Source: Streptomyces sp. NBC_00704 (GTDB lineage Bacteria > Actinomycetota > Actinomycetes > Streptomycetales > Streptomycetaceae). Taken from it: 64,000 bases of DNA. The notes beneath the pieces were generated by a model. The model saw nothing but the letters and a program-made list of their open reading frames with translations, did no database searches and had not been told where the DNA came from. Numbering within the stretch: the first letter of the stretch is position 1; each line of letters opens with the position of its first letter. This document shows, in pieces, positions 49,601 through 55,264 of this stretch. The position numbers were made by a program, and so were the translations under genes. Location of the stretch: positions 124,001 to 188,000 of the forward strand of contig NZ_CP109000.1 in the NCBI RefSeq assembly GCF_036226605.1, in the 5' to 3' direction.

Positions 49601-51600
49601 ACACCCAGGCCGCCGCCGGCGTCGGCGGGATCATCAAAATGGTCCAGGCACTGCACCACCGGCAACTGCCCGCCACCCTCCACGCCGACGACCCCACCCC
49701 CCACATCGACTGGAACGACACCCCCCTCACCCTCCTCACCGAAGCGCGGCCCTGGCCCAGCACCGGCACTCCCCGCCGCGCCGCCATCTCCTCTTTCGGC
49801 ATCAGCGGCACCAACGCCCACGTCATCATCGAAGAACCCCCCACGGCTCCCGCCCGCCACACCGCCGACCGGCCCGAGCCCGAGCGCACCACGTGGCTCC
49901 TGTCGGCGCGGACGGAGGACGAACTCCTACGCTCGGCCGAGCGTCTGGCCGACCATGCCGCCGCTCACCCCGAACTCACCGCGAACGCCATCGGCGACGC
50001 CCTCGCCCGCCGCCACCACCACACCCACCGCGCCGTCCTGCACGCCCACACCCGCGACGAACTCCTCAGCCAGACCCGCGCCCTCGCCACCGGACACACC
50101 CACCCCGGCATCACCACCGGAACCCCACAGACCGGCAAACTCGCCGTCCTCTTCACCGGCCAAGGAGCCCAACACCCCGGCATGGGACGCACGCTCGCCG
50201 AAACACACCCCCGCTTCGCCGAACTCCTCACCGACATCGCGGCACGCTTCGACACCCACCTCGACCAGCCGCTCCTGGACGTCATGTGGGCCGAACCCGG
50301 CAGCGAACTGGCCGCACTCCTCGACCACACCCACTACACGCAGCCCGCACTGTTCGCGTTCGAGGCCGCACTGTTCACCTACCTCACCGAACACGGCCTG
50401 ACCCCCGACTACCTCATGGGCCACTCCATCGGCGAACTCACCGCCGCCCACGCCGCGGGCGTCCTCACCCTCGACGACGCCGTCACCCTCGTCGCCACCC
50501 GCGCCCACCTCATGCAACAACTCCCCACCCACACCACCATGATCAGCGCAGGCGCAGGGATCGAGCAGCTCCACCACATCCTCGACCGCCATGCCGAGAT
50601 CGACGTCGCGGGACACAACTCCCCCCACCACACCACCCTCGCCGGCACCCACGACGCACTCACCGCACTCACCGAAGACCTGGACACCGCCGGCATCACC
50701 CACCGCACCCTGACCGTGTCCGGGGCCTTCCACTCACGCCACCTCGACCCGCTGCTGCCCCGTCTCACCGAAGCCGCCCGCCAGCTGACCCATCACGCAC
50801 CCACGATCCCCGTCATCACCAACACCACGGGGCAGGTCGCCGCCACCGGACAACTCACCGACCCCGCCCACTGGGCCACCCAAGCCCGCAGCGCCGTCCA
50901 CTACCACCAAGGCATCACCACCCTGGCCGATTTGGGCGTCACCACCTACCTCGAAATCGGACCCGACACCACCCTGACCCACCTCGCCCGAACCACCCTC
51001 GACACCAACGACAGCGTCGACGCCACCGTCTGCATCCCCACGCAGAACCCCCGCACCGACCACAACGACACGTTCACCGACGCCCTCGCCGCCCTCCACA
51101 ACACCACCCCCCACGGCCTCACCTGGCCCACCACCGACACACCCCCCATCCCCCTCCCGACCTACCCCTTCACCCGCACCCACTACTGGCTCACCCCCCA
51201 ACCTCAGACCACCGCCCAACACCTCGGCCTCGACTCCGCCGAACACCCACTCCTCGCCACCGCCACCGAACTCCCCGACGGCACCCACCTCTTCACCACC
51301 ACCCTCACCACCCACACCCACCCCTGGCTCGCCGACCACACCATCGCCGGCACCACCCTCCTGCCCGGCACCGCACTGCTGGAGCTCGCTCTGCACGCCG
51401 GGCTGCGGACGGGGTGTGAGGAGGTCGAGGAGTTGTTGTTCCAGGCTCCGGTGGCTCTCTCCGGTGATCGGGAGAGGGTGCTGCATCTCCTGGCGGGTCC
51501 GGTCGACGACTGCGGCCGCCGTCCGATCACGATCTACAGCCGGGACGCCGACGACGAGGGCTGGACCCGGAACGCCACCGGCACCCTGGCCGCCGTCTGA
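34663..51600 (+). CDS. Modular type I polyketide synthase: KSQ-ACP, KS-AT-AT-DH-KR-ACP, KS-AT-DH-KR-ACP, KS-AT-half DH
   Basis: 5,645 residues. Loading KSQ at about residues 13-435 (active-site Gln181) and ACP (Ser710), no AT. Module 1: KS (Cys951), AT (Ser1307), a second AT (Ser1720), DH (His2024, Asp2189), KR (Tyr2634), ACP (Ser2806). Module 2: KS (Cys3046), AT (Ser3498), DH (His3802, Asp3967), KR (Tyr4402), ACP (Ser4565). Module 3: KS (Cys4805), AT (Ser5255) and only the first hotdog of a DH (His5559), then the stop. All ATs have GHSIGE and GAFH, a malonyl-type pattern; the two KRs keep the Asp of B-type KRs. It should build an acetyl-primed, fully conjugated chain up to the third condensation, which needs a partner for DH, KR and ACP. 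That partner is probably the minus-strand gene at 52946-55264. Much of the gene is long internal repeats. Confidence 0.93.
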   Translation: MEPQHTYATQSAPVDIAIIGMACRFPGAPDLASFWRLLRTGADAVATLPTGRAELAGITPPAEDGPSRHGGFLESIDTFDPAFFGISPREAVTMDPQQRLVLELSWQVLEDAAIRPTDLRDTATGVFVGSFADDFGAVMHRVAPGSVTRHTLAGTRRGLIANRVSYALGLQGPSMVVDAAQASSLVAVQLACDSLRAGAAGLALAGGVNLLLDPAATTVVESFGGLSPDGRCYTFDARANGFVRGEGGGVVLLKRLADAMADGDRVHAVIRGGAVNNDGATEGLTVPSPDAQAAVLRRAHACAAVSATEVQYVELHGTGTRVGDPVEAAALGAAFGAGIRETPLHVGSVKTNIGHLEAASGIAGLIKTVLSIRHRRLPASLNFDTPNPAIDLEALGLRVQRSFTSWPDPDGPLVAGVSSFGMGGTNCHLVVSEAPASASRAQASTAVPLPSTLAPAPAPTPRTLASALPFPLSARTETALRAQAERLHAALEPGLEAEELDLVDVAFSLATTREDFAHRAVVLAADRESLNAGLDALARGLRTAHPPVPPDVRRLVDRYESGEAVSWATVFAGISPARVTLPGYVFDRARYWPEPDGEVVPKGTPTRAEDAGDMGTLGDVGTPDTVETASGGQGGGTMETGPVAGGGGTGTGAGAGVESRPGVEGAGARVAVGPGELLEVVRRAAADVLGHPAATDVGPDLTFRDLGLDSTGAVELRDAVQAETGIVLPSTVLFDHPTPNALARHLAERRSGSSPSAARARDHAEVRKAGSVPSALEDDPVVVVSMACRYPGGVTSPDELWRLVADGTDAIGDFPTDRGWDLDRLYHPDFEHTGTSTTRHGGFLHSAAEFDPAHFGISPREALSMDPQQRVMLELAVEAFERAGIAPAALQGSDTGVFVGATGLDYGPRLADASSDTAGHLLTGVTPSVISGRMAYTFGLSGPAVTVDTACSSSLVALHQAVQALRSGECGMVLAGGVTVMSSPGMFVEFSRQQGLSADGRCKAFSAHADGTGWAEGAGLLLLERLSDAQRNNHPVLAVVRGSAVNQDGASNGLTAPNGPAQQRVIRQALAAARLTPADVDAIEAHGTGTTLGDPIEVQALHQAYGTERPAERPLWLGSLKSNIGHTQAAAGVGGIIKMVQALHHRQLPATLHADDPTPHIDWDGTPLTLLTEARPWPRGEDARRAAVSSFGISGTNAHVIIEEPPARSGKLAVLFTGQGSQYAGMGRTLAEAHPRFAELLTDIAARFDTHLDEPLLDVMWAEPGSDLAALLDHTQYTQPALFAFEAALFAYLTEHGLTPDYLMGHSIGELTAAHAAGVLTLDDAVTLVATRAHLMQQLPTHTTMISAGAGIEQLHHILDRHPDIDVAGHNSPHHTTLAGTRDALTALTEDLDAAGITHRTLTVSGAFHSRHLDPLLPHLTEAAQHLTHHTPTIPVITNTTGQVAATGQLTDPAHWATQARTAVHYHQGITTLAELGVTTYLEIGPDTTLTHLTRTTLDTRTDDADHTDSVTCIPTQNPRTDQNDAFVGALALIGRSPVPITWVLSGRTEEELARAAERLADHAAAHPELTARAIGDALARRHHHTHRAVLHAHTREDFLIQTRALAAGHTHPGLTTGTPQTGKVAVLFTGQGSQYAGMGRTLAEAHPRFAHLLTDIAARFDTHLDQPLLDVMWAEPGSELAALLDHTHYTQPALFAFETALFTYLTEHGLTPDYLMGHSIGELTAAHVAGVLTLDDAVTLVATRAHLMQQLPTHTTMISAGAGIEQLHDILGRHPDIDVAGHNSPRHTTLAGTRDALTALTEDLDAAGITHRTLTVSGAFHSRHLDPLLPHLTEAAQQLTHHTPTIPVITNTTGQAAATGQLTDPAHWATQARTAVHYHQGITTLTHLGVTTYLEIGPDTTLTHLTRTTLDTNDSTDATVCIPTQNPRTDQSQVFAEALAALHTTTPHGLTWPTTDTPPALLPTYPFTRTHYWLAAQLRTDATQIGLDSAEHPLLATATELPDGTHLFTTTLTTHTHPWLADHTIAGTTLLPGTALLDIALHAGDQLGHPHLSELTLHSPITLPAQLQLTIDTPTDDQRHLTIHTRTSDITSSPTDQAWALRATGTLTTTPPTPTTTPTPHTPPPTEHLGQPADLTAFYPTLTDHGYHYGPTFQGLTAHWPTTGWSHVTLPTTHTSPDGHHIHPALLDAALHPLIAPTTPHTDTPLRLPYTFTDVTTHPTHQPPTTLHIHTTPHPTKPNTYTLHAYTPDGTPALTITHLTLATADPHTLTPPIAVSSMEWLPVDTGTPVVPAEEEGDSDAVGVHSDWVQIGGAERLLRVSAHYADLGALLDALADGAPVPAVALYRVPTADMDDHEGDADVIGALHRITTTVLTDLQTWLTTPALTDTRLTVLTTTATTPHHPHTHLPHTALTGLLRTAHTENPHTITHGDLPHTPLTPTQTHHLTHAITTHTPQFTLHNNTLLTPQLTPTTPQPTHHTTDFTHGTVLVTGGTGGLGAMLARHLVTRHGARHLLLASRRGPAADGADRLTADLQALGATVRITSADLADRDATADLLDGIDPHHPLTAVFHLAGTLDDALLTDLTPDRTHPVLRAKADAAWHLHDLTRHHPLTHFVLYSSVAGLLGWAGQANYAAANTFLDALAEYRHARGLPATSLAWGLWAEGMGSTLSSSETARWTTAGMTPLTDAASAALLDAALGLDAPLLAPVRWDRTTLTALAERDELPPLLERLAVTRRRRPTVKTRVGTGAGSTASGWQQEMAGLSEVERAAAVRDLVTRVCAAVLHTQPEHLATDQAFKQLGFDSLTAVELRNRLNHETGLRLPSTLIFDHPTPHALATHITTHLTPPQTPTTPTTTPATTPTPRPDRDTQDDPIAIISMACRYPGGITTPEELWQLITHHTDAITGFPTDRGWNLDHLYHPDPDHTGTSTTRHGGFLHTAAHFDPAHFGISPREALTIDPQQRLLLELTLETLERAGINPHTLNGTNTGVYTGIMYDDYGARLHPAPTGYEGYITNGSMPSIASGRIAYTFGLQGPAITIDTACSSSLVALHQATHALHTHETDLVLTGGATIMATPSTFIEFSRQRALAPDGRCKAFSAHADGTGWAEGAGLLLLERLSDAQRNNHPILAIIRGSAINQDGASNGLTAPNGPAQQRVIQQALTNARLNPTDIDIVEAHGTGTTLGDPIEVQALMAAYGSQRDADRPLYLGSLKSNIGHTQAAAGVGGIIKMVQALHHQQLPATLHADDPTPHIDWTTGAISLLTEARPWPSTGAPRRAAVSSFGISGTNAHVIIEEPPARSEKPTIVTDDPDAERVAWVLSGRTEEELARAAERLADHAAAHPELTARAIGDALARRHHHTHRAVLHAHTREDFLIQTRALAAGHTHPGLTTGTPQTGKVAVLFTGQGSQYAGMGRTLAEAHPRFAHLLTDIAARFDTHLDQPLLDVMWAEPGSELAALLDHTHYTQPALFAFETALFTYLTEHGLTPDYLMGHSIGELTAAHAAGVLTLDDAVTLVATRAHLMQQLPTHTTMISANVGVEQLHHILGRHAEIDVAGHNSPHHTTLAGTHDALTALAEDLDAAGISHRTLTVSGAFHSRHLDPLLPRLTEAARQLTHHTPTIPVITNTTGQVAATGQLTDPAHWATQARTAVHYHHGITTLTHLGVTTYLEIGPDTTLTHLTRTTLDTNDSADATVCIPTQNPRTDQSQVFAEALAALHTTTPHGLTWSTTDTPPALLPTYPFTRTHYWLAAQPRTDATQIGLGPADHPLLAAASEQPDGTHLFTTTLTTHAHPWLADHTIAGTTLLPGTALLDIALHAGDQLGHPHLSELTLHSPITLPAQLQLTIDTPTDDQRHLTIHTRTSDITSSPTDQAWALRATGTLTTTPPTPTTTPTPHTPPPTEHLGQPADLTAFYPTLTDHGYHYGPTFQGLTAHWPTTGWSHVTLPTTHTNPDGHHIHPALLDAALHPLIAPTTPHTDTPLRLPYTFTDVTTHPTHQPPTTLHIHTTPHPTKPNTYTLHAYTPDGTPALTITHLTLATADPHTLTPPTAVPGVEWISLAVSEVPSSDVPSDWVQIGGENPLPGIATHHPDLDALLSALANGAPTPSTVLYRVPTADEGGSGDDADVVAATHRITTTVLTDLQTWLTTPALTDTRLTVLTTTATTPHHPHTHLPHTALTGLLRTAHTENPHTITHGDLPHTHLTPTQTHHLTHAITTHTPQFTLHNNTLLTPQLTPTTPQPTHHTTDFTHGTILITGGTGALGAVTARYLAARPDVGRLVLVSRRGADAPGTRELTEELAAAGTPTSVVACDVSDFDAVRELIDEITATGPLTGVVHSAGTVSDATLASLRPDQLTPVLTAKVDAAWNLHRATLDQPLAAFVLYSSVTGLLGSSGQANYAAANTFLDALAEYRHARGLPATSLAWGLWAEGMGSTLSSSETARWTTAGMTALTNAEGTALLDAALALDTPLLAPVRWDRTTLTTLAERNELPALLRRMAPAPRRRSGTTSGATWQEQTAGLSEVERAAAVRDLVTRVCAAVLHTQPEHLATDQAFKQLGFDSLTAVELRNRLNHETGLRLPSTLIFDHPTPHALATHITTHLTPPQTPTTPTTTPATTPTPRHDRNTQDDPIAIISMACRYPGGITTPEELWQLITHHTDAITGFPTDRGWNLDHLYHPDPDHTGTSTTRHGGFLHTAAHFDPAHFGISPREALTIDPQQRLLLELTLETLERAGINPHTLNGTNTGVYTGIMYDDYGARLHPAPTGYEGYITNGSMPSIASGRIAYTFGLQGPAITIDTACSSSLVALHQATHALHTHETDLVLTGGATIMATPSTFIEFSRQRALAPDGRCKAFSAHADGTGWAEGAGLLLLERLSDAQRNNHPILAIIRGSAINQDGASNGLTAPNGPAQQRVIQQALTNARLNPTDIDIVEAHGTGTTLGDPIEVQALHQAYGTERPAERPLWLGSLKSNIGHTQAAAGVGGIIKMVQALHHRQLPATLHADDPTPHIDWNDTPLTLLTEARPWPSTGTPRRAAISSFGISGTNAHVIIEEPPTAPARHTADRPEPERTTWLLSARTEDELLRSAERLADHAAAHPELTANAIGDALARRHHHTHRAVLHAHTRDELLSQTRALATGHTHPGITTGTPQTGKLAVLFTGQGAQHPGMGRTLAETHPRFAELLTDIAARFDTHLDQPLLDVMWAEPGSELAALLDHTHYTQPALFAFEAALFTYLTEHGLTPDYLMGHSIGELTAAHAAGVLTLDDAVTLVATRAHLMQQLPTHTTMISAGAGIEQLHHILDRHAEIDVAGHNSPHHTTLAGTHDALTALTEDLDTAGITHRTLTVSGAFHSRHLDPLLPRLTEAARQLTHHAPTIPVITNTTGQVAATGQLTDPAHWATQARSAVHYHQGITTLADLGVTTYLEIGPDTTLTHLARTTLDTNDSVDATVCIPTQNPRTDHNDTFTDALAALHNTTPHGLTWPTTDTPPIPLPTYPFTRTHYWLTPQPQTTAQHLGLDSAEHPLLATATELPDGTHLFTTTLTTHTHPWLADHTIAGTTLLPGTALLELALHAGLRTGCEEVEELLFQAPVALSGDRERVLHLLAGPVDDCGRRPITIYSRDADDEGWTRNATGTLAAV
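34699..36903 (+). other. Loading module: KSQ and ACP, acyltransferase missing
   Basis: The ketosynthase has Gln in place of the active Cys (VVDAAQASSLV), the mark of decarboxylating KSQ domains that turn malonyl-ACP into acetyl-ACP. After it comes the usual KS-AT linker (PFPLSARTETALRAQAERL), then directly the short post-AT linker (YESGEAVSWATVFAGISPAR, ending YVFDRARYW), a glycine-rich spacer and the ACP (GLDSTGA). The AT body has been removed cleanly, with both linkers left. Confidence 0.85.
39288..41490 (+). repeat. 2.2-kb direct repeat, copy 1 (linker-AT-DH of module 1)
   Basis: Almost the same sequence recurs at 44622-46824, a constant offset of 5,334 bp, covering the KS-AT linker, AT and DH. 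The copies differ mainly around 45270-45500 and 45957-46010. Confidence 0.85.
42118..42527 (+). repeat. KR segment shared in inverted orientation with the minus-strand PKS, copy 1
   Basis: About 410 bp of the KR of module 1, from the cofactor loop to the LYSS motif, is nearly the reverse complement of 56940-57347. The proteins agree over about 135 residues with almost no change. Confidence 0.85.
42948..44250 (+). repeat. 1.3-kb direct repeat, copy 1 (ACP1 and most of KS2)
   Basis: Recurs at 48225-49527 with an offset of 5,277 bp and very few differences. It ends sharply inside the KS, where module 3 continues with the sequence of the module 1 KS instead. Confidence 0.85.
43279..48480 (+). 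other. Module 2: KS-AT-DH-KR-ACP
   Basis: KS 43279-44563 (Cys at 43798), linker and AT 44620-45750, DH 45957-46815 (His at 46066, Asp at 46561), KR with VTGGTG... replaced by ITGGTGALG at the cofactor loop and QANYAAAN (Tyr at 47866), ACP Ser at 48355. The KR core (47440-47850) differs from that of module 1, while the flanks are almost the same. Confidence 0.88.
44622..46824 (+). repeat. 2.2-kb direct repeat, copy 2 (linker-AT-DH of module 2)
   Basis: Second copy of the repeat at 39288-41490. AT-only copies occur also at 38293-39165 and about 50140-51010. Confidence 0.85.
48225..49527 (+). repeat. 1.3-kb direct repeat, copy 2 (ACP2 and most of KS3)
   Basis: Second copy of 42948-44250. From about 49526 the sequence matches the module 1 KS (from 37966) instead, so KS3 is a chimera of KS2-like and KS1-like parts. 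Confidence 0.85.
48556..51597 (+). other. Module 3, incomplete: KS-AT and N-terminal half of DH
   Basis: KS 48556-49840 (Cys at 49075), AT 49890-51010 (Ser at 50425). The DH begins at about 51232 and keeps the first hotdog with HTIAGTTLLP (His at 51337). The frame stops after GWTRNATGTLAAV, where the linker to the second hotdog normally begins. Codon style changes at about 51380 from the C-rich dialect to ordinary usage. Confidence 0.87.

Positions 51601-55264: not shown

Follow-up and report, generated by a model that had tools for sequence, protein, structure and literature searches.

A polyketide synthase dehydratase apparently divided between two convergent genes in a predicted Streptomyces macrolactam cluster

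BE-14106, heronamide and ML-449 are 20-membered macrolactams with an amino starter unit that is made by a polyketide synthase (PKS). Heronamide and BE-14106 are made by similar PKSs (PMC4675941). For the macrolactam cremimycin, a review reports a dehydratase (DH) that is split between the proteins CmiP3 and CmiP2; when its two parts are joined artificially, this DH is active and dehydrates its substrate (PMC11284099). Here we describe a conserved further example of this kind of split in a DNA stretch of 64,000 nucleotides ("the window") from Streptomyces sp. NBC_00704 (contig NZ_CP109000.1, positions 124,001 to 188,000). A plus-strand PKS ends with the first of the two hotdog folds of a DH, which carries the predicted catalytic histidine (we call this half DHn), and a protein encoded on the minus strand begins with the second hotdog, which carries the predicted catalytic aspartate (DHc), followed by a ketoreductase (KR) and an acyl carrier protein (ACP). 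Between the two genes lies a gene for a glycine-oxidase-like enzyme, and upstream of the minus-strand gene is one for a glycyltransferase-like enzyme (Table 1). A sequence-only reading of the window had allowed that related macrolactam clusters might already show such a split; in the review's account, cremimycin does.

Modules that are divided over two proteins are also known from trans-AT PKSs (AT is short for acyltransferase). There, according to PMC9113145, modules are cut between domains, and docking regions (DHD or four-helix docking domains) are added. In contrast, the cut described here lies inside one catalytic domain, and in all eight genomes with the split, 0-9 residues separate the hotdog of the N-half from the stop codon. 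What is new here is the finding of the split in eight genomes with a conserved gene order, the purifying selection on both halves, and a relative (in genome G1177) whose DH is intact. We found no mention of the opposite-strand layout, of a case in which the halves are not adjacent, or of an uncut sister in the portions of the literature that we searched, although these may yet be in print.

The plus-strand PKS has a loading part, KS(Gln)-ACP (KS is short for ketosynthase), followed by KS-AT-AT-DH-KR-ACP, KS-AT-DH-KR-ACP, and KS-AT-DHn. In a profile search, the third extension module terminates after PKS_DH_N, the first DH hotdog, which is covered over its full length (profile positions 1-103 of 103), and no PS-DH (the second hotdog) follows it within the protein. 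This bears out the sequence-only reading, in which the gene stops once the first hotdog of the third DH is complete. The predicted catalytic histidine, as judged by motif, is His5559 (codon at 51337) in HTIAGTTLLP. A predicted model of the last 122 residues is a single hotdog-like unit (pLDDT 76.6). The loading KS has glutamine in VDAAQASS, and no GHSIG motif was found in the loading part. The AT specificity motifs that we searched for product prediction gave no match.

The minus-strand protein shows the complementary arrangement: PS-DH without PKS_DH_N, and then KR and PP-binding. Its predicted catalytic aspartate, again by motif, is Asp118 (codon at 54913) in HPALLD, and this column is invariant in all 16 C-half proteins that we aligned (in one of them, P0012, the initial residues typical of the family are missing). 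As had been claimed, the gene appears to start at the second hotdog with a ribosome binding site of its own: GAAGGAAG is located 3 nt upstream of the ATG, and the homologues P0001-P0005 also start with MTV. In a predicted model, residues 1-49 have low confidence and the hotdog with Asp118 comes next; the length of this initial stretch varies among homologues.

Are the two halves one dehydratase? The genome of strain NBC_00704 has 15 matches to PKS_DH_N and 15 to PS-DH, which form 13 pairs by position. The unpaired matches are DHn, DHc, a PKS_DH_N on contig C3 that scores 21.9 bits (the cut-off is 27), and a PS-DH at C1:6952900. DHn and DHc are the only unpaired matches within the cluster. Furthermore, when we searched 177,635 sequences from the PDB, both halves matched 6k97 ("Fusion DH") best, and they did so over successive stretches: the N-half over residues 18-148 (E = 2.7e-37) and the C-half over residues 181-334 (E = 2.5e-33). 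A Foldseek search with the predicted model of the N-half also ranked 6k97 first. We take 6k97, from its title, to be the fusion of cremimycin CmiP3 and CmiP2. The cluster resembles that of cremimycin in having the cut between the hotdogs, with the histidine on one protein and the aspartate on the other, in its best PDB match, in its starter pathway with CmiS1-like and CmiS2-like enzymes, and in belonging to the same clade (see below); it differs in that its N-half is 51-52% identical to the cremimycin DH. Together with the retention of the split in eight genomes and the selection on both halves, these matches uphold the earlier claim that two proteins share one DH, which is the best-supported reading of the sequences. 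The two native proteins would assemble in trans.

To see how widely the split is conserved, we searched other genomes using the neighboring genes, so split DHs that lack such neighbors would escape. We found the split in eight genomes (our own and G112, G179, G337, G363, G1014, G1112, and G1202). Among 392 genomes of the same genus, searched with the oxidase, four besides our own had matches at 1.9e-97 or better (the next match was at 1.1e-84). These four (G112, G179, G337, and G363) all encode, in this order, the glycyltransferase-like enzyme, DHc-KR-ACP, and the oxidase, and a PKS that ends in DHn converges on them on the opposite strand. Among 394 genomes of the family, searched with the glycyltransferase-like gene at a threshold of 1e-65, five besides our own passed: two have the convergent split arrangement, G1014 has the split over two contigs, and two (G1100 and G1177) have intact DHs only. 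Overall, the gene order is the same in all eight split genomes, and the N-half PKS converges on the C-half operon in seven of them. Each of the eight also has one orphan half of either kind in the stretches around the loci (in locus L050, a DHc at the edge was excluded from this count). In locus L047, the N-half starts with residues that read as X, and the oxidase has an internal stop. In G1014, which belongs to another genus, the PKS that ends in DHn (L076:9686-12958) is on a different contig from the DHc-KR-ACP operon.

The C-half protein is also present in a protein database. Among the best 120 of 440 matches, the top 13 are proteins of 694-767 amino acids without PKS_DH_N; they score at least 606 bits, and the next match, which has an intact DH, scores 565 bits. 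These proteins are from Streptomyces, Nonomuraea, Actinomadura, and metagenomes, and they may overlap with the eight split genomes. Further matches without PKS_DH_N among these 120 (such as P0016, P0029, P0044, P0053, P0058, and P0079) could be either splits or fragments.

Neither neighboring gene is diagnostic of the system when taken alone. Besides our own genome, 3 of 394 genomes of the class passed 1e-88 with the oxidase, and the other genes of the system gave no match in the 20 kb around each of these. A scan of the genome contigs with the oxidase gave only three distant loci, which we set aside. Similarly, the glycyltransferase-like gene lies beside intact DHs in G575, G701, G1100, and G1177. 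G575 and G701 are the 2 of 394 class genomes, besides our own, that have it; it is found in 2 of 35 genomes in their family and in none of 200 genomes in the family of G613.

In a tree built from the DHn tail and DHc (226 columns), the eight split DHs form one clade (support 97/95) relative to 28 intact DHs. Adding the halves of 6k97 gave a clade of nine split DHs (98/96, with the bootstrap not fully settled) relative to the same number of intact rows, which indicates common descent with the CmiP3/CmiP2 DH. A tree of the C-halves alone also gave the split clade (85/90). In a tree of the N-halves alone, the split DHs did not form one clade (2 changes), in our reading because the head of our DHn is homogenized (see below); the joint trees omit the columns of this head. 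A length or score filter removed two intact pairs (one each from L069 and L072), and the trees do not include the weak intact DHs of L062 and L063. From these sequences, the split appears to have a single origin in this pathway family and to have been retained since.

Outside the split clade, the closest DH is the intact one of G1177 (93/97 without 6k97, 89/88 with it). It lies beside the same type of glycyltransferase, but in an uncut DH-KR-ACP module, and no oxidase of the CmiS2-like type was found in the 20-kb locus. Because this module is uncut, the cut may have arisen later, in the macrolactam lineage. The G1177 locus (L073:8030-17914) encodes a TauD-family oxygenase, a ScoD-like enzyme, and a PKS that has one intact DH, one KR, and two each of KS, AT, and ACP. 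Possibly, it would produce an isonitrile acyl chain. (Isonitrile pathways are mentioned in PMC11284099.)

To ask if the halves are under selection, we compared three close pairs of genomes. For the split halves, dN/dS was 0.27, 0.31, 0.29, 0.51, 0.27, and 0.40; for intact DHs from the same pairs, it was 0.26, 0.31, 0.15, 0.23, 0.33, and 0.36. By these ratios, both halves are under purifying selection, perhaps with slightly weaker constraint than for intact DHs.

We propose that the last module of the likely starter-unit PKS is cut inside its DH and that, very probably, the halves assemble in trans into an active DH that serves the starter pathway. To the observed anatomy, motif residues, conservation, clade, and selection, this proposal adds several steps. 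The native proteins would bind each other, and KS-AT-DHn would extend the chain on the ACP of its partner; the KR and then the DH would yield an enoyl-ACP. By comparison with cremimycin, the enoyl thioester would be the substrate of the glycyltransferase-like enzyme, which would attach glycine to it and set the product free. The glycine-oxidase-like enzyme would trim the rest of the glycine to give a 3-amino acyl starter. An adenylation enzyme, a discrete carrier, and a VinK-like acyltransferase would load this starter on the core macrolactam PKS.

Several observations weigh against this proposal. The activity in PMC11284099 was reported for an artificial fusion, while the native two-protein complex is a prediction here. 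Another review gives the split DH region of cremimycin a role in forming hydroxyl groups (PMC9230918); for these two accounts, both reviews refer to Kawasaki et al. 2019 (Biochemistry 58:4799). The oxidase passes the ThiO model as well, and the glycyltransferase-like protein scores 201 bits against NF049938, which is under the NCBIfam cut-off of 250. The dN/dS of a split half is above the matched intact value in four of six comparisons (up to 0.51 versus 0.23), equal in one, and lower in one. Finally, the N-half motif in G1014 is HxxxDxxxxP, so its glycine is lost. The account of hydroxyl groups, the higher ratios, and the lost glycine would all fit with DHn being a dead or purely structural remnant, so that the partner provides only KR and ACP and the module does not dehydrate. 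We consider this improbable. Both motifs are complete in our cluster, the aspartate is invariant in the C-half proteins, and dN/dS is well below 1 for both halves in all three genome pairs. Furthermore, PMC11284099 reports both dehydration by the fused DH and the use of the enoyl product by the next enzyme.

The repeats of 91-93% identity in the plus-strand PKS could mislead an assembly, but it is barely credible that the split is an assembly error, a frameshift, or a recent truncation of an ordinary DH-KR-ACP module: the same break is found in eight genomes from two genera, and the same type of C-half protein in the 13 database entries; a complete gene separates the halves, which are on opposite strands; and the split DHs form one well-supported clade. 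The DHc-KR-ACP gene shares its strand with the core PKS and the glycyltransferase-like gene and comes after both, so it might instead serve some other module than that of DHn, such as one in the core PKS. This is highly improbable, as the 124 kb around the cluster contain 11 further DHs, all of them complete pairs, which leaves DHn as the only orphan N-half there, and as all eight split genomes have one orphan half of each kind.

If two proteins do form one DH, then the cut itself might be a kept design. We suggest tentatively that it frees the DHc-KR-ACP half-module from the PKS and places it in an operon with the glycyltransferase and the oxidase, so that an obligate two-protein site gates the release of the starter. 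The unsplit sister module of G1177 would then be a natural uncut control. More broadly, a catalytic site that is shared by two PKS proteins and conserved in a pathway family would be a natural means of cutting PKS modules within a domain and rejoining them, and the eight split clusters and their uncut relative are material for testing how halves recognize each other without an obvious docking domain.

The sequence-only reading had also noted that the 3' end of the plus-strand PKS gene keeps ordinary codon use and had argued that this end is conserved for a function. The change in codon use is real: the fraction of C-ending codons is 0.88 in codons 5526-5550, then 0.76, then 0.24 in codons 5576-5600, and then up to 0.40 and, at the very end, 0.71. 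But modules 1-3 are 91% identical in DNA over kilobases, and the tract in the third module ends at 51401; the repeat region (39287-51401 in the window, 91% identity over 6.8 kb) has strongly C-ending codons. The head of DHn shares 54 and 48 of 56 positions with the intact DH heads of modules 1 and 2, while its tail shares just 20 of 60 with each of their tails. So, the change in codon use marks where a repeat or conversion tract ends, at 51401. That the DHn tail remains outside the tract is consistent with conservation without proving it. Identity of the head is higher to four split relatives (0.62-0.68) than to 14 other intact DHs (0.39-0.52), a hint that the donor was the split module. For the tail, the ranges overlap (0.37-0.48 to split N-half tails and 0.29-0.40 to intact tails).

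Module 1 of this PKS has two tandem AT domains (38279-40484 in the window, or about residues 1206-1941, with GHSIG at 1305 and 1718). Their DNA is 93.5% identical over 979 bp.

Table 1. Features of the split-DH locus, in window coordinates
Feature	Position	Strand	Comment
Plus-strand PKS	34663..51600	+	5645 aa; likely starter-unit PKS, with DHn at the C-terminus
DHn, N-terminal hotdog of the split DH	51235..51597	+	HxxxGxxxxP motif complete
PKS tail outside the 91% repeat of modules 1-3	51402..51600	+	C-ending codons less used
Perfect 19-bp inverted repeat, 15-nt loop	51614-51632/51648-51666		Between the convergent genes
FAD-dependent glycine-oxidase-like gene	51708..52835	-	Best PDB match 6j38/6j39; located between the two halves
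DHc-KR-ACP protein	52946..55264	-	772 aa; C-terminal hotdog (Asp118), KR, ACP
DHc, C-terminal hotdog of the split DH	54665..55141	-	YGPAF and HPALLD motifs complete
CmiS1/SAV606/ScoD-like gene	55333..55923	-	196 aa; predicted enoyl-ACP glycyltransferase, upstream of the C-half gene
Core macrolactam PKS gene, 3' part	55980..64000	-	Intact DHs; upstream of the glycyltransferase-like gene; extends past the window

The oxidase and glycyltransferase-like genes belong to the split-DH system and are additions to the sequence-only reading. The oxidase matches 6j38, presumably CmiS2, far better than any other PDB entry (E = 2.4e-111, 376 bits; the next match has 129 bits). The best PDB match of the glycyltransferase-like protein is 5wsx/5wsy (E = 8e-47), which we take to be SAV606. 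Thus, by sequence match, both enzymes of a 3-amino fatty acid starter pathway (CmiS1/SAV606-like and CmiS2-like) are present. Genes for a beta-aminoacyl-ACP synthetase, a discrete ACP, and a VinK-like acyltransferase, as expected for a beta-amino acid macrolactam cluster, are found nearby, as is a second ligase.

The inverted repeat had been described as a perfect 19-bp terminator. The repeat is indeed perfect, but a terminator scan that requires a run of T found no sites; that it acts as a two-way terminator is possible, as a guess. Elsewhere in the window, 9711-17319 encodes a GH42 beta-galactosidase, solute-binding and transport proteins, and a protein with a ricin-type lectin domain, apparently outside the macrolactam cluster.

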